Shown: one piece after another, positions 15,957 through 40,023 of the stretch | How the letters are laid out: every line of letters starts with the position of its first letter | Position numbering within the stretch: the first letter of the stretch is position 1 | Source of the DNA: a virus | Virus record (IMG/VR): IMGVR_UViG_3300045125_000022 | Location: 1 to 40,055 of that record | Reading direction: 5' to 3' (one strand) | DNA: 40,055 bases | The notes under the pieces: model-generated | Told to the model about the DNA's origin: nothing | Databases searched by the model: none | The model's input: the letters and a program-made list of their open reading frames with translations, nothing else | Position numbers and translations under genes: made by a program

Positions 15957-16457
15957 ATGATCACCAGCGTAGAGGTGTGGAAGCCCGTTGTCGGCTACGA
16001 AGGGCTTTACGAAGTGTCAAACCAAGGCAGAGTGCGGAGCTTGCAAAGCGCAAGGATTTTGAGCACTAAGCCAAGCAAGCATTTGGGCTACGTCTCCTAC
16101 AACCTCAGGCGCGCAGGTGCCGCGCGGGCTTGCTACGCCCATTCGCTTGTGCTTGAGGCGTTTGTTGGTCCAAGACAAAGCTCAAAACACCAAGCCTGCC
16201 ATGGCAACGGAAACCGAGCAGATAACCGCGTTGAAAACCTTCGATGGGGAACACGGGCTGAGAACTACGAAGACGCCCGCCGGCATGGCACCAACTCAAA
16301 AGGCAAGCGCCATGGCGGTGCAAAGCTGACGGAGCAAGCCGTTTTAGCCATCAGGGCAGACACTCGACTTCACCGAGAAATTGCGTTGGATTATGGGGTC
16401 AGTCGGTCGCGCGTCAGCACTATCAAGAGCCGCAGGGATTGGGCTTGGCTGCCCTAA
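15957..16457 (+). CDS. NUMOD4-HNH homing-type endonuclease
   Basis: About 166 residues from MITSVEVWKPVVGYEGLYEV at 15957. Domains: NUMOD4 (WKPVVGYEGLYEVSNQGRVR), HNH_3 (HGNGNRADNRVENLRWGTRA, then ENYEDARRHG), and a C-terminal HTH (HREIALDYGVSRSRVSTIKS). It runs against the flanking minus-strand genes and overlaps the endolysin 3' end by four bases, as expected for a free-standing mobile endonuclease. The NUMOD4 and HTH parts bind DNA; HNH nicks or cuts it. Confidence 0.88.
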   Translation: MITSVEVWKPVVGYEGLYEVSNQGRVRSLQSARILSTKPSKHLGYVSYNLRRAGAARACYAHSLVLEAFVGPRQSSKHQACHGNGNRADNRVENLRWGTRAENYEDARRHGTNSKGKRHGGAKLTEQAVLAIRADTRLHREIALDYGVSRSRVSTIKSRRDWAWLP

Positions 16458-17533
16458 TACGTCCACCTGACGCGAGGAGCACCGCGCCGGATTCCAAGAT
16501 GGATGAATTTTGGCGCCGCGTACCCGAGGCTGTACGGCCAGTTCTGATCGACCCAGCGTTGCACGGCCATCATGTCCACTCCCTCAATCACGAAATCCAC
16601 CGCCCCCACGCCGGGATCGTCGTACAGGTGCTCTGATCCCGAGGCGCCACCCACCAGTTTGTTGATCGCTGCTGGCCGGTAGCCGGAGGTGATCACCACC
16701 GGCCGGCCGCCGAACTGCGCGCGCGCACGCTCTAGGAACTGCGCCAGCCGCATCGCTGTGTCGCACTGGTGCTGGTGATCGAAGCGGCGGGCCTCCTGGT
16801 TCAGCGCAAACTCGCCGTAGGTGATGTGCGGCGTGAGCTTGTGGGAGAAGGGCGACTCCGGCGTGAACATCGCGGAGATCGGTCCGGTGGTCTGCCGCTC
16901 ACGCCCCCACAGGTCACCTTCTGCGATGCGGCGCCGCTTAAGGCCAGCCTCCACGTTGGTACCGGGGTTGCGGTAGAGCAGCAGGGCATCGGGAACGCCG
17001 GGCCAATCTTTCTCGCGTAGGCGCTTGCTGATCGTCTCGAACCCGGCCGCGCCGTAGAACCCGCTGCCGAGGTTGTAGGCGAAGCTCACCAGTGCGCACT
17101 TCTGATGGTCGGCCATCTCGCGCCAGTAGGGCACCGTCGCGCGCAGCTTTTCGGTGATCCGGTCCACCTCTTGCCGCAGCAGCATGTCTGCCTCGACGCG
17201 GTTGGTGCGGTCGCCTTTCTGCACCTTGCGGCCGTCGCTGTAACGCGTCGTGCCCCAGCCGATCGTCCACGGCTCGCCGCCGCTGGCCGGGTCGGGGTAG
17301 GCGTCGAGGTGACAGCCCTCGAACTGCTGGATCAGCTTCAGCGCATCGCCGAGGTCCACCTGCCTGCCGTCCTGGCTCCAGGTCTGGAACCAGGGCCGAT
17401 CACGCCGCATCGCAGCCGCGTAACCGTTGACGGCCAGATCCTGCTCGAGCTGCTCGATCGCTGCCAGCTGGTGCGGCAGCCCGCGGTTGAACCGGAACAG
17501 CTGCTCGAGCGTGATCGGTGCGGTGTTGGCCAT
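16454..17533 (-). CDS. Endolysin: GH24 muramidase plus M15 D,D-peptidase
   Basis: 359 residues, intact. After a 60-residue helical lead, the GH24 domain shows LKLIQQFEGCHLDAYPDPAS, EPWTIGWGTTRYSDG and SFAYNLGSGFYGAAGF, with the catalytic Glu in FEG and the downstream Asp/Thr region. The C-terminal part has SPFSHKLTPHITYGEF, PVVITSGYRPAAINKL, GASGSEHLYDDPGVGAVDF and FIHLGIRRG: the Peptidase_M15_3 zinc site (H, D, H). It should cut both glycan and peptide bonds of peptidoglycan. No signal peptide, so release needs the holin-like neighbours. Confidence 0.9.
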   Translation of the reverse strand: MANTAPITLEQLFRFNRGLPHQLAAIEQLEQDLAVNGYAAAMRRDRPWFQTWSQDGRQVDLGDALKLIQQFEGCHLDAYPDPASGGEPWTIGWGTTRYSDGRKVQKGDRTNRVEADMLLRQEVDRITEKLRATVPYWREMADHQKCALVSFAYNLGSGFYGAAGFETISKRLREKDWPGVPDALLLYRNPGTNVEAGLKRRRIAEGDLWGRERQTTGPISAMFTPESPFSHKLTPHITYGEFALNQEARRFDHQHQCDTAMRLAQFLERARAQFGGRPVVITSGYRPAAINKLVGGASGSEHLYDDPGVGAVDFVIEGVDMMAVQRWVDQNWPYSLGYAAPKFIHLGIRRGAPRVRWTY

Positions 17534-19104: not shown

Positions 19105-20691
19105 TCAGACGGCCGTGAGGTTTTGGATTTGGGCGTCAGCAAGGCGCTTCGGCCAGTAAACCAAGCGAGTAATTGTGCCGCACAGGATCTCTGTACCCGC
19201 AACATTCTTGCCGATGTGCAAGATAGTGTCGCTAAGGGCTGCGAATGTTCCAGTCCCGCTTGTCGCCAAGGTGCCATCAAAGGCTGCTCGATGGCTGCCA
19301 TTTGCTACTGCATAGGCAATTTTGCCTCTGCTGCTAGTCATTGCTTGGCTAACAGAGTATTGACCAGCCGACGACACCCTTGTTTCTGCGTACAAAGAGC
19401 TTGCGCCTATCTTGCCGATGATGAACGCGTTGGGTCCGGTTGTTGTCGTACTTCCAAACTGCGCTGCCCATCTGGTTGCGTTGCTTGTGCGCTCGGGGGA
19501 AAAGTCGCAGAACACGGTTCCTTCGTTCTGGTTGTACCAGCTGCTGAAATTCGTCCCCGTCATCTGCGCCACGTCAGCGCTGCGGGTGACGGTGGCAGCA
19601 ACGGTGGGGATGTAGCTGGTGGGGAAGGCGCCGGCTTCTAGCTGTGCGCCCCAGATAAGAACGGAAGATGCAGGCCCAAAAATCGTCCAGTAGGTGGAAC
19701 TGCCGCTTGCTGTGCTCACGCTGACTGGCAGTAGCACTCTGTACCACCCGTTTGGATACTTCTCAATTGTTGCACCTGTAAAGCCGGAAACAGTCCCGCT
19801 GGAAAGGTTGACAGTTGCTGTTGCGCTGGGCGACATGCTACCTATTGATCTTATTTCCAGCGACGTTCCCGCATTAGCCTTAGCAAAAATTGAAAAGACC
19901 TTGCTTCCGGTTACTCCAGAGTTGTCAAAATGATAGGTCCGGTTGTTGGCAGTGCCTTGAACAATAGAGGTAGCCGTATTTGTTCCGTCAGGTGCTGTGC
20001 CTGCGCTCGCTGTAAGCGAAATGCCATCCTGGTTCCAGCCGCCGGAGTTAAAAGATTGCGAGCTGACGATGATGTTTGTCCTCGCCTCCTCAATCAACAA
20101 CCCCAAGCTCTCGCCCGTGCTGGGGCTGTGATCAAAGCGCGGCTCGTTAATCGCAGCCGTCTTGATCAGCCCATCCGCGCCGACATAGGTGGCCGTCGTT
20201 GCCCGCGAGAACGACACCCTCGGATCCAACGCCTTGCTGTTGGCGAAGTCCAGCAGCAGCGACGGCCGCACGCTGGGGAAATCAGCCGTATAGGTGTAGT
20301 CGGTCGCGCTGAGCGGTCCCGCGCCACTGAGCGAGTTTGCGGTTGTGGCCGTCGTCGCCGTTGCCGCGTTGCCACTAATGCTGATCGGCCAGGTGCCCGA
20401 CGCGCCGGTGCCGGTCAGTGGCGCATAGGTCGATGCTGCAGTGGCAGCCGGCAGCAGGCCCCAGTTCACCGTATCAGCGGTGCCAACAACGATCCAGGCG
20501 CTGTTGGCGCCGTTGCGCTGCTTGATGGTCGCCGGGCTGGTGCTGGTGTCCGCCCACAGCATGTAAGCGTACGTCGTGCTCGGCGCTGATGACCCGCTCA
20601 TCAGCGTGCCAAGCGCCAGCAGCTGATTGTTCAGGTCTTGCCTAAATGCCAGCCCTGACTGGTTGGCGACGTTGAGATCAGCCTGTGGCAC
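19105..20691 (-). CDS. Tail fibre / receptor-binding protein with carbohydrate-binding module
   Basis: 528 residues from a GTG that overlaps the J stop. The N-terminal part (FRQDLNNQLLALGTLMSGSS, YMLWADTSTSPATIKQRNGA) is a common cyanophage and siphophage fibre-attachment segment, followed by an NAATATTATTANSL collagen-like/low-complexity stretch. The middle has SFSRATTATYVGADGLIKTA and GLLIEEARTNII, the opening of the phage CBM-like/concanavalin fold. The C-terminus (AFDGTLATSGTGTF, ILHIGKNVAGTEILCG, ITRLVYWPKRLADAQIQNL) is LamG-like. It probably binds surface glycans of the host. Confidence 0.8.
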   Translation of the reverse strand: MPQADLNVANQSGLAFRQDLNNQLLALGTLMSGSSAPSTTYAYMLWADTSTSPATIKQRNGANSAWIVVGTADTVNWGLLPAATAASTYAPLTGTGASGTWPISISGNAATATTATTANSLSGAGPLSATDYTYTADFPSVRPSLLLDFANSKALDPRVSFSRATTATYVGADGLIKTAAINEPRFDHSPSTGESLGLLIEEARTNIIVSSQSFNSGGWNQDGISLTASAGTAPDGTNTATSIVQGTANNRTYHFDNSGVTGSKVFSIFAKANAGTSLEIRSIGSMSPSATATVNLSSGTVSGFTGATIEKYPNGWYRVLLPVSVSTASGSSTYWTIFGPASSVLIWGAQLEAGAFPTSYIPTVAATVTRSADVAQMTGTNFSSWYNQNEGTVFCDFSPERTSNATRWAAQFGSTTTTGPNAFIIGKIGASSLYAETRVSSAGQYSVSQAMTSSRGKIAYAVANGSHRAAFDGTLATSGTGTFAALSDTILHIGKNVAGTEILCGTITRLVYWPKRLADAQIQNLTAV

Positions 20692-23600
20692 TAGATCTGC
20701 CTCCCGAACCCGATGGCGGTGTAGGTGAACTGACGGCTCACGGCGCTGCCGGCACTGTTCCTAAAGGTTACCGCGAACCCGGTGCGCGTCACGGATGCGA
20801 TCGTGAAATAATCGCCGGTTGCCATGTTGAAGCCCGTCACGCCAACACTCGGCGCAGCAAAGAACGCATTGCTGAAGGTGACCGTATAGGTGCCCGCGCC
20901 GCTTGTCAGCGTTGCTGATTGCTCGGTGCGTTGCTGTAGCTCCATGTCAACGCCGAGCTGCTCGATGACGATGTTCTGCGCCGGGTCGTCGCTAGTGGCA
21001 ATCGTCTTGAACTGAAAGCCACGTCCGCGCACGATCGCGTTGCTGAACTCACGCCATGCGCTCCAGGTTGGTGTCCCGGCCGGATCATCCTGCGTCGTGC
21101 GCACATAGGTCAGTGCGTTGACGCGATCGCCGCCGTTCCCGTCGATGAAGTCCCAGCTGTCGATGGGGTCGGTCTTGTCGTCGATGAAGTCGCCCGGCAG
21201 GTACGGTTGCGACACCAGCCGGCGCCGCAGGTTGGCATCGAACACGCCGGGGAAGCTGTAGGTCGAGCCGAACTCGTATTCGCCGGTGCTGAGGACGCCG
21301 CCGATGCTGTCGATCGACGCCAGGCCATCCCAGTTGCCATCGGTGGCCATCGAGTCAACCGCAACACCGTTGCTCAGCACGATGCCGCTGGCGCCGCCCA
21401 GCTCAGCCAGACTGCCGACATAGAACATGTCGGTGTAGTTGCCGCTGAATGGCGGGGTCTCGGTGTCTTCGGCGTAGGTCTGCACCATCAGCCGTGGTTG
21501 AGGCGTCGGCAGGTCCACCACCACTGTGCTGGCCACCAACGAACGCCGGCCGCCGTCATCCTCAAACTTGATCAGATAGGTGCCCTCGAGCAGCGGCACC
21601 TGCTTCTGCGTCTGGCTGCCGGCTGCGGCTGCGACAATCTCTTGCGATTCCTCCCACAACGCGCCGGTCAGCGCGACGCTGTGACGGATGAGCACCTTGC
21701 CACCCAGCAGTACGTCCAGCTCGGTGCTGCGGTCCCAGCTCAGGATTGCGCTGGCGCTGTCGATCGGGATCAGGGAGATGCCGGTGGGGCTGATCGGCAA
21801 TGCGGTCTTGCCGAAGGCGTTAAACGTCAGACTGGCCGGTGAGACGGACTGCTTCAGGCCAGCGTTGAGGCTGTAGACCTCGATCTGATACAGGCCGGCG
21901 CTGGTGTCGAGGATCTCGTAGTCAAGCCGCGTCTGCGTTGAGCTGGTCCAGTTGCCGTTTTGCGGCCTCCATCGCACCCGGTATTGGCTCACGCCCGCCA
22001 CGGCCTGCCAGCTGAGCACCAGCTTGGACAGCGCTCGGCCGTTGTTCTCGTAAAGCGCCTCGATCGCCTGCAGGTTTGTCGGTGCTGCCGGGATCACGTT
22101 CAGATCGGAAACGTCGCGCTGCTCCAGCCGCAGGTCGCGCTCGATGTAGCCGTATTTGCTGGCGTTGTAGGACAGCGCCGTCACCGTGTAGCTGGCGCCG
22201 TCCTGCTCCTGCACCGACAGCACCCGCCAGGTGGAGGTCTGCAGCGTCGAGGTCTGGTAGATCCAAATGCTGTTGCTGTTCGGCGCGGCGCTGAACGCCG
22301 AGCTGACCGTGAGCACGTTGCCGGCGATGTTGGTAACCGTCCGGCTCTGCACCGTGCCGTTGGGCAAGATCACCGACAGGGTTGAGGCCGCGCCGATCGT
22401 CAGGCCGGTCGCGTCGTCCACTGTGACGGCGGTGGTCGTGGCCGAGCTGATGCGCCCGCCGCGGCGGCTGCCGGCCCGCATCGGATCGCTGATCTCGATG
22501 ATCTGCCCCGGCCGCACGATGACGCCAGCGTCGATCGACGCGGTGAAGCTGACCACCTCGGACTCGTACCACTCGGAATAGAGCAGCCATTCACCCAGCC
22601 GATGCGCCTGTCCGCGTGAGGTGCAGGCGAACGCCGAGATCTCGCGGGTGATCACGCCGTACTTGGCGATCGCGTCTTGGTCCTCGACCACCTCGTAGTC
22701 GATGTCGCGCTTGTCGAGGTTCAGCCAGCTGATCACCGCCACGGTCGGCCGGGTCTTCAAGCTGCCGCTCTGGTAGCTGAACCCTTCCTCGCTGACGTTG
22801 GCGTAGGTGAACAGGTAGGCCGAGTCGGCCGGCCGGTCCTGGCTGACGGTGAGCGCGCCGGTGGACCAGTAGGGCATGGCTCGGAAGATCGAGCACATGT
22901 CGTTGATCAGCTTGTAGGCGTCTTCCTGCGTCTGGATGTTGACGTTGCAGCTGAACCGCGGTTCCTGCCCGCCGAAGCCGTTGGGCACCAGCGCCGAGGC
23001 GTATTGGCTGGCGGCATAGAACGCCCATTTGTCGAGCTGGCTGGCGCTGATGTGATCGCCGAACCCGTAGCGGGTCGAGGTGAGTAGGTCCCACAGGATC
23101 CAAGCCGGATCCGTCGTCCACCGGGCTGCACCAAACGATCCATTCCAGATGCCTGCATAGGTCAGCCGGCCGGTGGTCGAGTCCACCGTTGCGTTGCTCG
23201 GGATGGCGACCTTGATGCCGCGCACCAGATAGCTGCGGCTCGGGATCGAGTTGAACTGCTCGGCATCAACCCGCAGCGCCACCAGAGCGCTGTTGGGATA
23301 GCGCAGCTTGGCGTAAGTGATCTCGGTGAAGCTCGACCAGCTGAAGGCGTTCTGAATCTTGGCGCTGCCGCTGTCGGCCGCCGTCCGCACCACCTTCACG
23401 TCCACCGGGAACGCGCCGGTCAGGTTGATCAGGTAGTCGCGTTGAAATTGGTCGCCGCTGCGGCCTTCCACCCGGTCGCTGATGGCTGTCGTATAGCCGC
23501 CGCCGTTGTACTGAACCTGAATCTGCAGGTTGAAGTTGGAGCCGGCGATGTCGCCGTTGTCCTTGAACTCCTGCAGCTGCGGCACCGTGATGGTCACCCT

Positions 23601-24412
23601 GACCGCGTTGACGGTGTTGCTGGTGATGCTGCGCACCACAGGCGTGGCCTGCAGCACCTGCACGCCGACGGGTTTCTCGTTCTCAACGTCGGCCGCGATC
23701 GGGATGTAGGACTGCGCCTGTGTGCCGTTGCGCGTCGTGACGGTGACGTTCTTGAAGTTGTAGGAGCCGTCGGCGTTCTGCAGCGGGGTGTTGTCAACAA
23801 AGATCGACCGATGGCCGTTCTTGAGGCCTTCGATCTCGCCCTCGCTGATCAGATCGACCAGATTGGCGTACTGGGTGCTGTTGAGCGTGTCGCCGGCTTC
23901 GGTCGGTGTGTAGGTCGTGCCGCCGCCACCCTTGCCGCCGCCTCCGCCGCCGGCCCCTGCAATGGCGCCCAGGCCGAGGCCAGCGTTGTGGACGCGGATC
24001 CCGCCAGCGATGAAGGTGTGGTGCCCCTCGACCGTCAGGTTGTAGACCGTGCCGGTGCCCTTCTCCTCGCGCCCCACGATCGGCCGGAGGTGGCCGTTCT
24101 CATCCACCAGGCAGTCGTCGGGGCCCAGCGTGCCGATCTCGACGAAGGCGTTGAACTGGTTCAGCACCCAGTGGTTCGGCGTTGCATCGAGCACCGCGCC
24201 ACCCCACAGCCGGTAGCACATCACGCGCTCGCCGTCGTGGACGTGCACCCTCAGCACCTGCGCCTGATGCAAGGTGCCCTGATCGTCGAAGCTCAGGACC
24301 AGATCGCCAGGCTGCAGCTCATCTATCCGGCACAGCCCGCCAGGGGTGCGGACCAACGTGTGGCCCAGGAAGCACCCCCGCCACCACCACCAGCGCCGAC
24401 AATCCTGCTCAT
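20691..24412 (-). CDS. Tail tip attachment protein J with N-terminal intein-like insertion
   Basis: About 1240 residues. It starts MSRIVGAGGG at 24412 (ATG overlapping the gpI stop). A one-base loss in the GGGGG run at about 24378 shifts the frame; after correction the reading is open to 20691. A Hint domain occupies about residues 14-143. The lambda gpJ body follows: YTPTEAGDTLNSTQYANLVD, LISEGEIEGLKNGHRSIFVD, WNGSFGAARWTTDPAWILWD, NGFGGQEPRFSCNVNIQTQE and CTSRGQAHRLGEWL, then a fibronectin-type III-like domain (LSKLVLSWQAVAGVSQYRVR) and a beta-rich C-terminus. J forms the tip spike and recognises the receptor. The +1 residue after the Hint is Ala, see the separate entry. Confidence 0.9.
23985..24374 (-). 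other. Intein-like Hint (BIL-type) domain inside J
   Basis: 130 codons. Block A: CFLGHTLVRTPGG with Cys1. Block B: GGAVLDATPNHWVL with the TxxH pair. Block F/G: GTVYNLTVEGHHTFIAGGIR then VHN at the end. There is no homing-endonuclease insert, so it is a minimal Hint. Exteins on both sides are Gly-rich (GAGGGGGG before, AGLGLGAIAGAGGGGGG after). Cys1, the block-B His, and the terminal His-Asn needed for N-S acyl shift and Asn cyclisation are all present. The +1 residue is Ala, not Cys/Ser/Thr, as in bacterial intein-like domains. Cleavage rather than normal splicing is therefore expected. Confidence 0.85.
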
Positions 24413-24976
24413 GTCTGCACCGTGTCGATTCCGGCTGAAATCACGACCGAGCCGACCAGTGTCTCGCCGTAAACGATCGGAACCGGCACTCCAGCTCGGC
24501 TCGTCTGCTGGATGCCGCTGGAAGCTGTAGGACTTGCGTGGGTCCTTGTTGGTGTCTGTCGTGCTGGCCCCGTTCAGCGTTGGCACTGGCGTCAGCAGCT
24601 GCGCCACACCGCCCAGGACAAGGCTGGCGCCGACGCCAACCAACAGCTGGACACCGAGAGCGCCGATGCCTGGCACCAGCAGCCCGACCGCCAGCAGGGC
24701 GACACCAGCGATGATCCGCCCCACGGCGCCGGCACCGGCCACCACGGGAACGATCTTGATCTCTTGCTGGCCGGCCGGATCGTTCAGCTCGCTGAGCGCC
24801 AGGTCATAGCCGCCGACGCTGACCCGGTAGTGCTGATCGGCCATGTGCCGCTCGAGCTGCGGGAAATTGGTCAGCAGGAAGCGCACGGCCTCAGCCGCGC
24901 TGCTCACCTCGGCCTCGAACTTGCGCCGCCCGAGAAACTTGGCCAGGCGCCCGTAAATGCGAATGGTTCGCAACAT
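24409..24976 (-). CDS. Tail assembly protein gpI-like, one frame break
   Basis: Starts [20 protein letters not shown] at 24976, overlapping the gpK-like stop. It is a ubiquitin-like first half (AAEAVRFLLTNFPQLERHMA, GGYDLALSELNDPAGQQEIK) followed by a hydrophobic Gly-rich segment (GRIIAGVALLAVGLLVPGIG) and PRKSYSFQ. At about 24510 the frame slips and continues GIQQTSRAGVPVPIVYGETL, VGSVVISAGIDTVQT to a stop overlapping the J start. This is the lambda gpI layout; gpI acts with K in tail-tip assembly and is not kept in the finished tail. Confidence 0.82.
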
Positions 24977-25699
24977 CAGCCCAGCATGAGCCTCCCTGCA
25001 TCGTAGTGCCGCAGTCGGCGCCCAGTGCACTTCTGCAACCACCCGCCATAGAGGTCGCGGCTGCTCAGCCGGCCGCGGATGTGATGCAGGATCAGCTGAT
25101 CGCCGAGGTAGACCCCGACGTGATTGAGCCCCGGCCCGCTGATGCTCATCAGCACCGCGTCGCCGGGCTGCAGCTCATCATCCTCGGCCAGCTCGCTGGA
25201 AGCCGGCCGCCGTCCAGCAGCCGTCGAACATCGGGTCAGCCTCGAACTGCTCAGGCGTCAGCGGCCGTTCCCAGTCCGGCAGTTGCAGACCGTTCTCGCC
25301 GTACCAGTCGCGCGCCAGCGTCCAGCAGTCGGTCAGCCCCCACACCCACTCGCGGCCGATAAGCGGCGCCTTGTAGCCCGATGGCCGCAGCTCAGGGCTC
25401 CATGCCCCGGTCTTGGGGTTGACGATCCACCACGGCAGCCCGGTGCGCTCGATGCCCAGCAGGTCGGCCTGGCTCGGCACTGGCGGGGTGACGGGGTGAC
25501 TGTGAACCACCGCGAGGATCTCGCCGGCATCCTCGGCTGCCGCGAAGTCGTTAGGGTCGAGGATGAACTGCTCGGTGCCGGCCGACAGGTTGCGGCACGG
25601 CCAGTAGCGCTCGCGGCCTTTAACCACCACCAGCAGTCCGCAGGCTTCGCGGGGGTCGTCCTGCTGCGCGTGCTCGAGCGCTGCGGCCTGCCAGCTCAT
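24976..25699 (-). CDS. gpK-like tail protein: JAMM protease plus NlpC/P60, one frame break
   Basis: [20 protein letters not shown] begins a JAB/MPN domain with the metal motif [20 protein letters not shown] (H-S-H...S...D). The second domain is NlpC/P60: [18 protein letters not shown] (catalytic Cys), then, after a slip at about 25195, [20 protein letters not shown] and [17 protein letters not shown] (His). Lambda gpK has the same two domains; one trims tail proteins or acts on peptidoglycan at the tip. Overlaps L by four bases and I by one. Confidence 0.85.
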
Positions 25700-26418
25700 G
25701 TGAAGTAGGTTCCGATGCCCGGCATAGAGCCGAACGGCAGTTCAGCCGTGCTGCCGAATCGCGCTTTGCAGCTGCTGAGCTTCTTGCCGCACACGTCGGC
25801 CGCCAGCGAGGCCACGGCTTGGTCGTTCTCGTTGAAATAGTTGGTCCCCGTGTAACCGCACTCGGTCGAGCGGTACTCCCATTGGCAGATGTTGCCGATG
25901 CACTGCCGCTTCGGTGCGCGCACGCCGGCGAGGTCGAACGCTGCCGCCAGCTCGAACTCGACCACATCGCGCGTCTCGGTGGACTTGCGGTCGATGAAGT
26001 AGATCTCGCGCGGGAACTCGGCGGTTGGGTCCGGTGTGCCGTAGGGATTGACGCCGCCGGGGAAGTTGACCGCATCGATGTAGCGCGCCAGCGTGCGGAT
26101 GCGCGTCACCTTGGCTCCGTCGAGCCCCTTGGGCAGGCTGAGCAGCAGCGCCGTGATCGTGCCAAGGATGTTGCTGACGCGCACCTTCGGCCGCGGCAGC
26201 GTGCCCTGGCCGTTGTACTCGAACCCCTCGGCCTCGACCGGAAACCGCAGGTAGGCGTTGCCGGCCCAGACCAGCTCGCCGTTGCTGTTGAGGCTGGTCC
26301 CGGCATGGAACCGATAGGTGTCATTGGAGCCATGCTGCGCTGCATTGAGTTGCAGCTCAAATAGCTCGATGATGGCGCTGGGCGCGATCTGCTGCAGCTC
26401 TGAGACGGGAACACTCAC
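25696..26418 (-). CDS. Minor tail protein L
   Basis: 240 residues from a GTG at 26418. N-terminal beta domain [20 protein letters not shown] and [21 protein letters not shown]-terminal [20 protein letters not shown] and [17 protein letters not shown]. The four-Cys C-terminal domain corresponds to the iron-sulfur domain reported for lambda gpL, which joins the tip complex to the tube. Intact; overlaps M and K by four bases. Confidence 0.88.
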
Positions 26419-26751
26419 GGCTCAAACACCTCGCGGAAGGTGGCCTGGATCTGGTTGTTGTTGCAGTTGCTCAGCGTGGTCTGCCATTCCTCGCAGACGT
26501 ATTTCCCGGCAATGCCGCGTGGTGAGGTCCAGTCGAAGCTCTCAACACCGCCACGCGCTTCAAGGAAGGCCAGGATCTCGTCTCGCTCGGTGTCGGTCGC
26601 GGTTGGCGAACGTCAGGCTCCACTCCTTTGGATCAGTGTGCAGACCAAACCGCACTCGCTGCTCATAGCCATCGCCAGCTTGGAACTTCCGCACCCGAGG
26701 CTGGCTGCTCTCGGTGGCTTCAAAGCTCGGTGTGTAAGTGAAGGTCGCCAT
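26415..26751 (-). CDS. Minor tail protein M-like, one frame break
   Basis: Starts MATFTYTPSFEATESSQPRV at 26751, then RKFQAGDGYEQRVRFGLHTD and PKEWSLTFANRD. A slip near 26600 leads to EILAFLEARGGVESFDWTSP and YVCEEWQTTLSNC, then [12 protein letters not shown]. This is the short beta-sandwich minor tail protein family of lambda gpM (about 110 residues) that connects the tape measure end to L. Confidence 0.8.
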
Positions 26752-33480: not shown

Positions 33481-35374
33481 TCAGGTGGTGATGTCGAGGA
33501 TGGCCGCGAAGCTCTTGGGATCGCGCACGGCCACGTCATAGGTGACAATGCCGCGAACGCTGGTCAGAGCCTTGCTGGAAGTCGTCCTGGTCCTCGCCCA
33601 CGGTGATCTCCAGGCCGTTGCCCCAGAAGCCCACCATGGCCTGGCTGAAGTCGCCCATCAGCAGTGCAGAGCACACGCCGGAGCTGGAGCCCTTGGTCAG
33701 GGTGTTGGGGACCTGGTTGGAAGCGGCCAGAGGGTAGCCGTTCAGGATGCCGGGGGTGGGACCGCGGCCGATGGTGGCGCCATCGATGTTGAACAGGAAC
33801 GGACCGTCGCCGGTGGTGGAGCCACCTGCGCGGAGTTTCTTCAGCGCAGCCAGCACCCGGTAGTTGGTGAGGTAGGACACGGCACCGGGGTTCACCACGC
33901 CGTTGACGTTCATCACGGCAGCTTCCAGATCCACCACCGTCTCCATGGTGATGGCGCCACCGTTGGTGCCCATCGCCACCGAGCCGATGCCGGAGGTCTG
34001 CATGATGCCCGTGGGCTGACCGGAGGAACCGGAACCGTTCAGGATGCCCAGGTCGATGGCGAGGTTGATGCCATCGGTCAGGTCACGGCGCACCAGCTCC
34101 TCGATGCCAGGGGTGCCCTGCAGCAGGGTCTGGCGGCTGTACTTAGACAGCGCGGCCAGGTTCTTGGGCGCCATGGTCACCTGGTCGAAGAGGGACTCCG
34201 ACTGGGTGATCGCGGTGGTCTGGGTGCTCAGGTAGTAGGTCGAGGCGACACCGGAGCGGCGGGGGATCGCCACGTTGCCGACCAGGCCGGACATGGTGCG
34301 CACGCCGAGCTGCAGCAGCACTGCGTTGTTACGCAGAAACTCGATGAACTCATCGGCCAGCAGATCGGTGGCAACCAGGTTGCCGCCGGTGGTGGCGCCG
34401 GAGGTCACATAGGTGGCACGCTGGCCGCCCAGTGCAGAGAAGGGAACAAAGAAGCTGCGCTCAGCGCTCTTGTTCACGCCGGACTTCTCCACCTCGCGGG
34501 AGAGGTCACGCACCAGCCCAGCCTCGCGGCTCGACCAGTCGCCGGTCAGCATCGCGCGGATACCTGCGGTGATGCTGTAGCTGGCCCGCTCCTGGGCAGC
34601 CATCTCGATCGGAGCCACGGTCTCAACAGGCTTGGCGCCCAGCTTGTCGAGCACAACGGCGCGGGCCTCATCAAGGCTGCGGCCGCCGTCGATCAGCTGA
34701 CGGCCAAGGTCGGCCATGTCGTACTTCTCGGTCAGGGCAGTGATGCCAGCGATGCGGGTGCGCTCGGCTTTTGCAGCCTCAGCAGCCGCTTCAGCCCGCA
34801 CCGCCGAGATGTCGGGGGTGTTTTCCATCGGAACCTCAGGTTCTGTTTCGGGGGTTGGTGATGCGGCGGAGGCCGCAGGATCAGTCTCAAGAGACCGACC
34901 CACACCCACAGTGGGGTCTGCAGGTATGCTAACCACGCTGATCTCGTAGGGAGCCCAGCTGGTAGCGACAAAATCACCGCTGCCGCGTTGCTCCATTTCG
35001 TTGATCGCGTAGCCAAAGGATACATTCCGAAGAACGCCATCCTTCACGTCAGCCAGCACCTCCTGGGCGAAGGCATTGCGGCTGAACTTCACCGTGGCGT
35101 AGCCACGTTTCTTCTGCCCATCAATCCACGCGCGCTCCACCACGCCGATCACCTTGTTGGGGTCGTGGTTGAACAGCAGCGGTGCCGAGTCATTCAGACG
35201 GGTCAGATCAGCACTGCGCGCATCATGCTGCAGCACCTCATTCCCGAAATAACGGGCGACGGGATACTCACTAGAGAAGGGGAACTCAATCGAACGCTCG
35301 TCTTCGCTGACCGTGAAGTCAGCTACTTCGGCGCGCTTCAATAGCTGCCCTTCAAGATCACGCGATAGGTCCAT
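33481..35374 (-). CDS. Fused prohead protease and HK97-fold major capsid protein, 3' frame slip
   Basis: About 630 residues from the ATG at 35374 (GAGG six bases upstream). Protease: SEDERSIEFPFSSEYPVARY, PLLFNHDPNKVIGVVERAWI (His) and VLRNVSFGYAINEMEQRG (Ser). Scaffold-like helix: VRAEAAAEAAKAERTRIAGI. Capsid: YVTSGATTGGNLVATDLLAD, EFIEFLRNNAVLLQLGVRTM, LVRRDL-type IEELVRRDLTDGINLAIDLG and MGDFSQAMVGFWGNGLEITV. Near 33570 an extra C shifts the frame; corrected, it ends SFAAILDITT. Protease, scaffold and coat in one polypeptide is a known but less common HK97-type variant. Confidence 0.9.
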
Positions 35375-36932
35375 CGGTGTCCTCGATGTCATCTTGTCCA
35401 TTATCGGGTGCAGCAGCGTCATCAGCCTCAGCGGCACTCTCCGCCGGCTCCGCTGCAGGATCCTCCATTGCTTCGTGCTCGTTCTCAGGGTTGGTGTCGA
35501 AGTAAAGGTCCAGCTCCTCAGCGCGATCCACCTCGGCCTTGCGCGCCAGCAGCAGCTCCTCAAGGTCGCCGCCTTGCTCGGCCACCACGTCCGCCTGCGT
35601 CTTGAACCCGCAGCGCACCGCCTCCTTGTACGCCTCAACCTCCTTGGCCGGATCCACCCATGCCCAGCCGCGCGGCATCCACCGCACACGCCGGTAGCGA
35701 TCGGGATCGGTCTCGTAGGCCGGCAGGTTCAGCGCACCGCCGAGCACTGCCATCTCAAGCCATGCCTCAAACACCGGCCGGTGGAAGTTCTCGATCATGT
35801 ACTGCTGCAGCGCCTTCCAGTTCTCCCGGTCTTCCAGCAGGCTCAGCCGGCTGCTGCTGTAGTTCGTCTGGCTGAAGTCCCGGCTGATCGTTTCGTAGCT
35901 GCAGCCCACACCGGCCGCCATCGCGCGCAACATCGCGCGCAGGAACGGCTCCAGCTGGCCATCAGGTGCATCAAGCTGCGGCACCGTCACGCTTTCGCCG
36001 GGTGCCAGGTACTTGAAGACGCCGGGCTCGAAGTTGCTCACCCGTTCGTTGTCGTACACCTCATCACCCAGCAGCTCGCCCTCGGGGCTGGTGATGAAAC
36101 CCATCAGGCTGCTGCTGGCCCGTGCGCGCACCACCTCCGCCTGCTCATAGCCCTGCAGCATGTGCAGCCGCTGGATCGCGCTCGCCAGCCAGGGCACGCC
36201 TCTGGTCTGGCCGGGGCGTTCCTGCTGGTAAAGATGAAGCACCTCAGCAGCAGGCACCAGCCGGTGCCGTGCCGTGGTGCTAGGCCCAAACGACGAATCA
36301 CCGGGATGCTTCGTCAAGAACGCATACTGCACCGGCCGACCCCAGCGGTTCAGCTCGACGCCCATCCGCCACTCATTCCCATCGACCGTGCTGCCGCCGG
36401 TGTAGTTGTCGTCCAGCAGATCGCTCTCGATGATCTCCAGCGCGAACGGCACCCGGCTGGCACCGAACGGCTGGCGCACCATCCGCACGAACACCTCGCC
36501 GGACTCAGCCACTGCACCGATCAGCAGCCGCTCGATGTCGGTGAAGCTCAGCCGGCCGGCCGTGTGGCAGCTGTCCTTGCGCCCCCAGTCAGACCACGCC
36601 AGCTCGATCGCATCGTTCACCGCTTGATCCAGACGCCCGCCGCCGCGCTGCATCCGCACCTGCGCCTGCATCCTGATGCCGGTGCCGATCACGTTGTTGC
36701 GCACCGCACGGATCGCCTGGCGCGCGTAGTCGTTGTCGCGCACCAGCTGGCGCGAACGGTTCCGTAACCGCGGCAGGCTGCCCTTAATCTCCGCATCGGC
36801 GCTGGTGCCGCCCGTCACCCAGTCGCTGGTCAGCCGGCTGACCCGCGCGCCCTCATACATCCGGCGTCGTGGTGCTGGCATCGGGGCGGCGCCCTGCTGC
36901 AGCCAGCCAAGTATCGAGGATCGGATGCCCAT
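35358..36932 (-). CDS. Portal protein, lambda gpB family
   Basis: 524 residues, intact. SRQLVRDNDYARQAIRAVRN, NVIGTGIRMQAQVRMQRGGG, FTDIERLLIGAVAESGEVFV, RGVPWLASAIQRLHMLQGYE and DFSQTNYSSSRLSLLEDREN are family motifs of the dodecameric DNA entry ring. The C-terminal 50 residues are highly acidic (AEPAESAAEADDAAAPDNGQ). Overlaps the gpW-like stop by one base and the protease start by 17. Confidence 0.92.
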   Translation of the reverse strand: MGIRSSILGWLQQGAAPMPAPRRRMYEGARVSRLTSDWVTGGTSADAEIKGSLPRLRNRSRQLVRDNDYARQAIRAVRNNVIGTGIRMQAQVRMQRGGGRLDQAVNDAIELAWSDWGRKDSCHTAGRLSFTDIERLLIGAVAESGEVFVRMVRQPFGASRVPFALEIIESDLLDDNYTGGSTVDGNEWRMGVELNRWGRPVQYAFLTKHPGDSSFGPSTTARHRLVPAAEVLHLYQQERPGQTRGVPWLASAIQRLHMLQGYEQAEVVRARASSSLMGFITSPEGELLGDEVYDNERVSNFEPGVFKYLAPGESVTVPQLDAPDGQLEPFLRAMLRAMAAGVGCSYETISRDFSQTNYSSSRLSLLEDRENWKALQQYMIENFHRPVFEAWLEMAVLGGALNLPAYETDPDRYRRVRWMPRGWAWVDPAKEVEAYKEAVRCGFKTQADVVAEQGGDLEELLLARKAEVDRAEELDLYFDTNPENEHEAMEDPAAEPAESAAEADDAAAPDNGQDDIEDTDGPIA

Positions 36933-39960: not shown

Positions 39961-39984
39961 GTGAACTATTGATGAAGCGGCGCA

Positions 39985-40023
39985 CGAAAAACGCGAAAGC
40001 GTTTCACGATAAATGCGAAAACG
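39985..40023 (-). repeat. Three CG(T/C)TTT(T)CG repeats and a hairpin, cos/TerS-site candidate
   Basis: Minus strand copies: CGTTTTCG (40023-40016), CGCTTTCG (40001-39994) and CGTTTTTCG (39993-39985). AAACGC-GAAA-GCGTTT (39989-40004) is a perfect stem with a GAAA loop. They lie 60-100 bases upstream of the terminase genes, where lambda keeps cosB R-sites (CGTTTCCTTTCT-like). Function inferred from position and similarity. The 31 bases between here and 40055 show nothing else. Confidence 0.45.

Follow-up and report, generated by a model that had tools for sequence, protein, structure and literature searches.

A-type bacterial intein-like (BIL) domains combine a Hint fold of about 130-155 amino acids, without an endonuclease, with Cys1, a TxxH motif in block B, a C-terminal His-Asn and a non-nucleophilic residue at +1. 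Their hosts are hypervariable, non-conserved bacterial proteins, in which they occupy varied places (PMC7765530), and those without a +1 nucleophile mainly cleave (PMC7664689; PMC7765530). Class 1 inteins carry Cys, Ser or Thr at +1, and class 3 inteins are defined by the absence of Cys1 and by a WCT motif with a block F Cys. In phage lambda, the last tail ring is formed by L and the N-terminal part of tail-tip protein J, while the lumen is plugged by I (PMC10721106). TAP-I has been predicted to hold a ubiquitin-like domain that K processes with its JAB peptidase (Iyer and colleagues, PMC1779556).

A 40,055-nt stretch of viral DNA (IMG/VR record IMGVR_UViG_3300045125_000022, positions 1 to 40,055), further called the window, was analyzed following a preliminary description made from its sequence alone. 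The features concerned, all on the minus strand, are as follows.

20691..24412 (-): tail-tip protein J, with FNIII-A, Phage-tail_3 and later fn3 domains downstream of the Hint
24375..24412 (-): N-terminal leader, corrected reading MSRIVGAGGGGGG; 38 nt here, one base short in the G-run
23985..24374 (-): Hint domain, 130 aa (translation, Pfam, PDB phmmer, Foldseek, family alignment)
24374-24372 (-): Hint Cys1 codon
24182-24180 (-): Hint T65 codon
24173-24171 (-): Hint H68 codon
24113-24111 (-): invariant Hint Cys88 codon
24020-24018 (-): Hint H119 codon
23990-23988 (-): Hint H129 codon
23987-23985 (-): Hint N130 codon
23919..23984 (-): post-Hint segment, with AGLG past the predicted cleavage site, the second copy of the J motif IxG[AS]GGGG and the KGGGG linker
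24409..24976 (-): tail assembly protein I orthologue, frameshifted near 24518-24549
24979..25699 (-): tail protein K orthologue (JAB + NlpC/P60), frameshifted near 25195
25696..26418 (-): minor tail protein L

The Hint domain of the window

Translation of 24374..23985 (-) yielded 130 aa running from CFLGHTLVRTPGG over DATPNHWVLNQ to GHHTFIAGGIRVHN, followed in frame by AGLGLGAIAGAGGGGGGKGGGG; the fuller translation reads CFLGHTLVRTPGGLCRIDELQPGDLVLSFDD...LDATPNHWVLNQFNAFVEIGTLGPDDCLVDENGHLRPIV...TVYNLTVEGHHTFIAGGIRVHN. Cys1, the TPNH of block B and the terminal HN, all named in the preliminary description, were read in this translation; Cys1, the T and H of the TxxH pattern and HN recur without exception in relatives. 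The best Pfam model was PT-HINT (3.7e-7, 30.9 bits, with a cut-off of 27.7 bits). Using phmmer against the PDB, the domain matched the Mtu RecA mini-intein (4.5e-8) and the C. thermocellum BIL domain (2.7e-7), and a family-profile search against solved structures returned the same two (8.4e-10 and 1.2e-8, respectively). In an AF2 model of the orthologue L003, pLDDT exceeded 90 across the Hint, while the leader and the Gly linker were disordered. Foldseek with this model gave the gp41-1 intein (TM 0.90) and BIL 2lwy (TM 0.87), and the Tetrahymena BUBL BIL2 (6tmm) was the top structural match by E-value. The domain is thus complete and not a chance similarity: the BIL-type Hint proposed at 23985-24374 was confirmed by PT-HINT, the PDB sequence matches and the predicted fold, and the comparison with the Hint, intein and BIL families that had been suggested matched PT-HINT, mini-intein and BIL alike. 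No homing endonuclease is present, as had been claimed, since 130 aa leaves no room for such a domain.

Relatives and invariant residues

At least 525 IMG/VR stretches encode a match. Three overlapping scans gave 450, 525 and 444 encoding stretches, of which the best 80 of each were kept; none of Cys1, HN and the +1 residue formed part of the search patterns of the first scan. The family set examined comprised 277 loci with 163 distinct Hints. Hint length was 130 aa throughout, with no indel in any locus, and about 46 of the 130 positions were fixed. Cys1, T65, H68, Cys88, H119, H129, N130, Gly-1, Ala+1 and Gly+2 were invariant, and positions +1 to +4 read AG[LI]G in 276 of the 277 loci. J followed the Hint in all but three loci; in these, the contigs stop at most 45 residues past the Hint, the sequence continuing J-like.

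Isolate phages gave 18 matching records, none of them in J, with a best full-length match of 33%; Hint-less J proteins at 40-50% identity were common in isolates. Literature searches turned up no Hint in J. The J Hint is a widespread BIL variant of uncultured water phages, hundreds of which carry it, in a new place.

For the cyanobacterial metagenome-assembled genome (MAG) carrying the Hint, an order-wide check matched 1 of 299 genomes, namely that MAG only. Its contig (L083) appears to be the same viral contig as locus L048. Together with a cyanophage-like capsid protein (39%), the MAG contig hints at a freshwater Synechococcus/Cyanobium host, but the single match among 299 genomes and the likeness to L048 weaken this hint. 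The window further encodes a 717-aa ORF fusing S78 prohead protease and HK97-type capsid domains (33536-35689, -), with Synechococcus phage S-LBS1 as nearest isolate (39%), and an ORF in which a peptidase M15 domain comes after a phage lysozyme domain, possibly a two-domain endolysin (16454-17533, -).

Comparison with known Hint systems

With A-type BILs (C. thermocellum 2lwy and the Hints of Roseibium and Trichormus), the J Hint shares fold, Cys1, TxxH, His-Asn end, non-nucleophilic +1 and lack of endonuclease. Its size of 130 aa and its fold (AF2 and Foldseek) lie within the A-type description, Cys1 and TxxH are invariant in the 163 distinct Hints, and both the C-terminal His-Asn and a non-nucleophilic +1 occur in 277/277 loci. 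Unlike BILs, it occupies a single fixed site in a structural protein of the phage and is followed by a fixed AGLG, rather than sitting in a hypervariable bacterial host. On account of this conserved site in phage J, we call the domain A-type-BIL-like, a variant rather than a plain member. The nearest non-phage Hints found were those of large calcium-binding proteins of Roseibium and Trichormus, with Asp or Glu at +1. The C-terminal block TVYN.TVE..HT..AG..RVHN is common to these and the J Hint, which fits an A-type BIL origin of the latter.

Class 1 mini-inteins (Mtu RecA, gp41-1) resemble the J Hint in fold (TM 0.77-0.90), in blocks A, B, F and G, in a conserved insertion site and in horizontal exchange. 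They differ in that the J Hint lacks Cys/Ser/Thr at +1 and a homing endonuclease, and its host is not a replication protein. The non-nucleophilic Ala at +1, noted in the preliminary description, is fixed in all 277 loci. A class 3 intein acting via Cys88 was rejected: Cys1 is invariant, the block F position is His119 and Cys88 lies outside block F. Hedgehog autoprocessing and pretoxin HINT domains share the Gly|Cys-Phe start, PT-HINT being the best Pfam model; the J Hint differs from them by ending in HN and by having neither a sterol-recognition region nor a downstream toxin. A Hedgehog Hog domain was likewise rejected, as the HN end is present and J follows instead of a sterol-recognition region. 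The Tetrahymena BUBL BIL2 is 21% identical to the J Hint; J has no fused ubiquitin-like domain, and the family of the adjoining gene I is predicted to carry one (PMC1779556).

The invariant Cys88 and the motifs DDC.VD and VHxHxxE stand outside the splicing blocks. Cys88, with H44, H46 and E49, is a possible metal or redox site.

Host protein and duplicated motif

The host protein is of the lambda J type. It matched NCBIfam lambda_TipJ (1.3e-138), its L003 orthologue matched the PHROG 'central tail fiber J' (6e-255), and gene order L-K-I-J was accompanied by TipJ, FNIII-A and Phage-tail_3 domains. The Hint lies near the N-terminus of J, as originally described. The stop codon of I and the start codon of J overlap (ATGA), from which it follows that J would be made as leader-Hint-J. 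No accessory gene lies between K, I and J and no partner gene tracks the Hint, since K and I occur with and without it.

Hint-less relatives open with a single motif, M-x(n)-I-x-G-[AS]-G(n)-K-GGGG. In Hint-bearing J, the motif IxG[AS]GGGG is present twice, on either side of the Hint: the leader copy, ending at Gly-1, in 165/176 (strict) and the copy after HN-AGLGxx in 173/176. The Gly-rich exteins that had been described on both sides of the Hint carry copies of J's own motif. With the motif on both sides, C-terminal cleavage and ligation would each leave J with a normal N-terminal motif, and we read this duplication as the best anatomical sign of a Hint that departs from J.

Exchange and constraint

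In locus L086, J is 87% identical to that of the window and has no Hint, the gap being in frame between Gly codons. In a J tree of 98 sequences, Hint presence required 12 changes, at least seven of them forced by well supported branches. This patchy presence and the close Hint-less J show that this J type can do without the cassette. Agreement between the Hint and J trees was weak (Mantel rho 0.29, against a maximum of 0.13 in 999 permutations). Between L185 and L173, nucleotide identity was 89% for the Hint, 66-68% for J and 63% for I; between L185 and L164, it was 69% for the Hint and 86-87% for J. Clear swaps of this kind show that the Hint moves between J alleles as a cassette, by recombination. 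Horizontal mobility at a conserved site, as in class 1 inteins, was thus found, through recombination and with no endonuclease seen.

At far distances, where pS had reached saturation in Hint and J alike, pN was about 0.22 for the Hint and 0.39 for J. The extreme Hint conservation in the first 80 loci was toned down as partly a matter of sampling, as identity drops to about 60% across the wider set of loci. The substitution pattern nevertheless indicates strong purifying selection on a Hint that is dispensable in principle.

Proposed processing and alternatives

The residues for the N-S acyl shift and Asn cyclization are present and fixed; the residue for trans-esterification is absent, its position being fixed as Ala. 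We propose that the Hint is an autoprocessing cassette, A-type-BIL-like, that takes itself out of J, a reading we hold to be probable, its chemistry, products and role being predicted. It is favored because the residues of both half-reactions, together with Gly-1, are invariant in 163 distinct Hints. The near-constant AG[LI]G, the fold matches to BILs and inteins, the constant Hint length, the lower pN of the Hint and the motif on both sides likewise speak for it, as does the tendency of BILs without a +1 nucleophile to cleave. In short, J would be synthesized as a leader of 11-18 aa, the Hint (130 aa) and J proper, and the Hint would fold between two flexible Gly linkers. Attack of Cys1 on Gly-1, assisted by T65 and H68, would form a thioester, and cyclization of Asn130, assisted by H129 and H119, would release J at AGLG. 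As position +1 offers no nucleophile, the leader would be lost by hydrolysis or else ligated to J when the newly exposed Ala amine attacks directly. By either route, the 130-aa Hint would depart, leaving J with an IxG[AS]GGGG-K-GGGG N-terminus for the tail-tip ring. The preferred role is that of a removable J cap, shed during tail-tip assembly; it is suggested by position, as the ring location of the J N-terminus in lambda (PMC10721106) would make such a departing cap sensible, though unproved. The auto-processing of J put forward in the preliminary description thus stands as the best explanation of a Hint in J, with the reaction itself a prediction and the suggested timing of assembly or cross-linking end conjectural. 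Conservation of the leader motif exceeds what plain discard of the leader would need, which counts against autoprocessing, as does the dispensability seen in the patchy presence and in the Hint-less L086, and retention of the Hint in the virion is conceivable.

That leader motif, retained in 165/176, speaks for true splicing without a side-chain nucleophile, in which leader and J would be ligated to M..IxGAGGGG-AGLGxxIxGAGGGG-KGGGG. G-1, A+1 and G+2 are small and flexible, and the title of a study on a BIL domain (FEBS J 2013, cited in PMC7664689) names ligation in the absence of a +1 nucleophile as its subject. Such BILs yield mostly cleavage (PMC7664689), however, and the leader motif may persist through translation coupling with I or recombination with Hint-less J, so we regard splicing as possible but somewhat doubtful.

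The exchange data also raise the possibility of a selfish, mini-intein-like cassette that uses the Gly-codon tracts of J to spread by homologous recombination, is tolerated through self-removal and brings the phage no benefit. The separate phylogeny of the Hint (Mantel rho 0.29 against the J tree), allele swaps such as L185, the empty allele in L086 and the lack of an accessory gene between K, I and J agree with this. Yet the Hint persists in hundreds of contigs with no homing endonuclease and with short direct repeats permitting loss, and the fixation of AGLG at +1 to +4 and of about 46/130 positions is more than self-removal should need; a purely selfish cassette therefore seems rather unlikely.

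Strong conservation beyond the active site (the invariant non-catalytic Cys88, DDC.VD and VHxHxxE) would suit a Hint that stays in J, unreactive, and serves the tail tip in structure or binding, but all catalytic residues of both half-reactions are invariant and would be unneeded for binding, which makes this improbable. More improbable still is a conjugation device, suggested by the operon neighbors K (JAB de-ubiquitinase-type + NlpC/P60) and I (of a family predicted to carry a ubiquitin-like domain), in which the Gly-ended leader would be loaded as a thioester and passed to an amine of another tail protein, marking the tail tip with a covalent tag in the style of ubiquitin, open to trimming by K.

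Reading frame of the record

From the ATG of MSRIVGAG to Cys1, the record counts 38 nt, one base out of frame. In the 277 related loci, the Hint is in frame from the start codon wherever the contig reaches one, and relative to them the frame of the window is broken in M, K, I and J, at 26596, 25195, 24518-24549 and 24375, respectively. Gene predictions on this record would come out fragmented as a result. An exact 50-bp phage Mu right end was found at 39973-40022, near the contig end, followed by ggttaaacaccc. The Mu end serves as the transposon end of Oxford Nanopore rapid adapters; its presence in a public UViG record is very likely due to an untrimmed adapter, and homopolymer indels are then to be expected. 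With the relatives in frame and M, K and I broken as well, the G-run break before Cys1 is assigned to sequencing error. The need for a frame correction in the G-run, foreseen in the preliminary description, was borne out, and judged from the in-frame relatives, Cys1 would not be left out of frame with MSRIVGAG after correction. A programmed frameshift making J a minor product, to which the out-of-frame MSRIVGAG and Cys1 of this record would point, was rejected as having next to no likelihood, given that every relative is in frame, that M, K and I carry further indels and that the Mu end is consistent with an uncut nanopore adapter.

Implications

Beyond the preliminary description, comparison of the loci indicates that the Hint is an exchangeable, dispensable cassette flanked by a duplicated N-terminal motif of J. 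If J self-processes, this would be a new maturation step of the siphophage tail tip, one that would have escaped notice because no cultured phage searched carries a Hint in J. It would also give a BIL domain a fixed host protein and, with it, a function open to testing, which BILs have long lacked. Exchange at Gly-codon tracts without a homing endonuclease offers a clean case for what maintains a non-homing, self-removing domain in populations.
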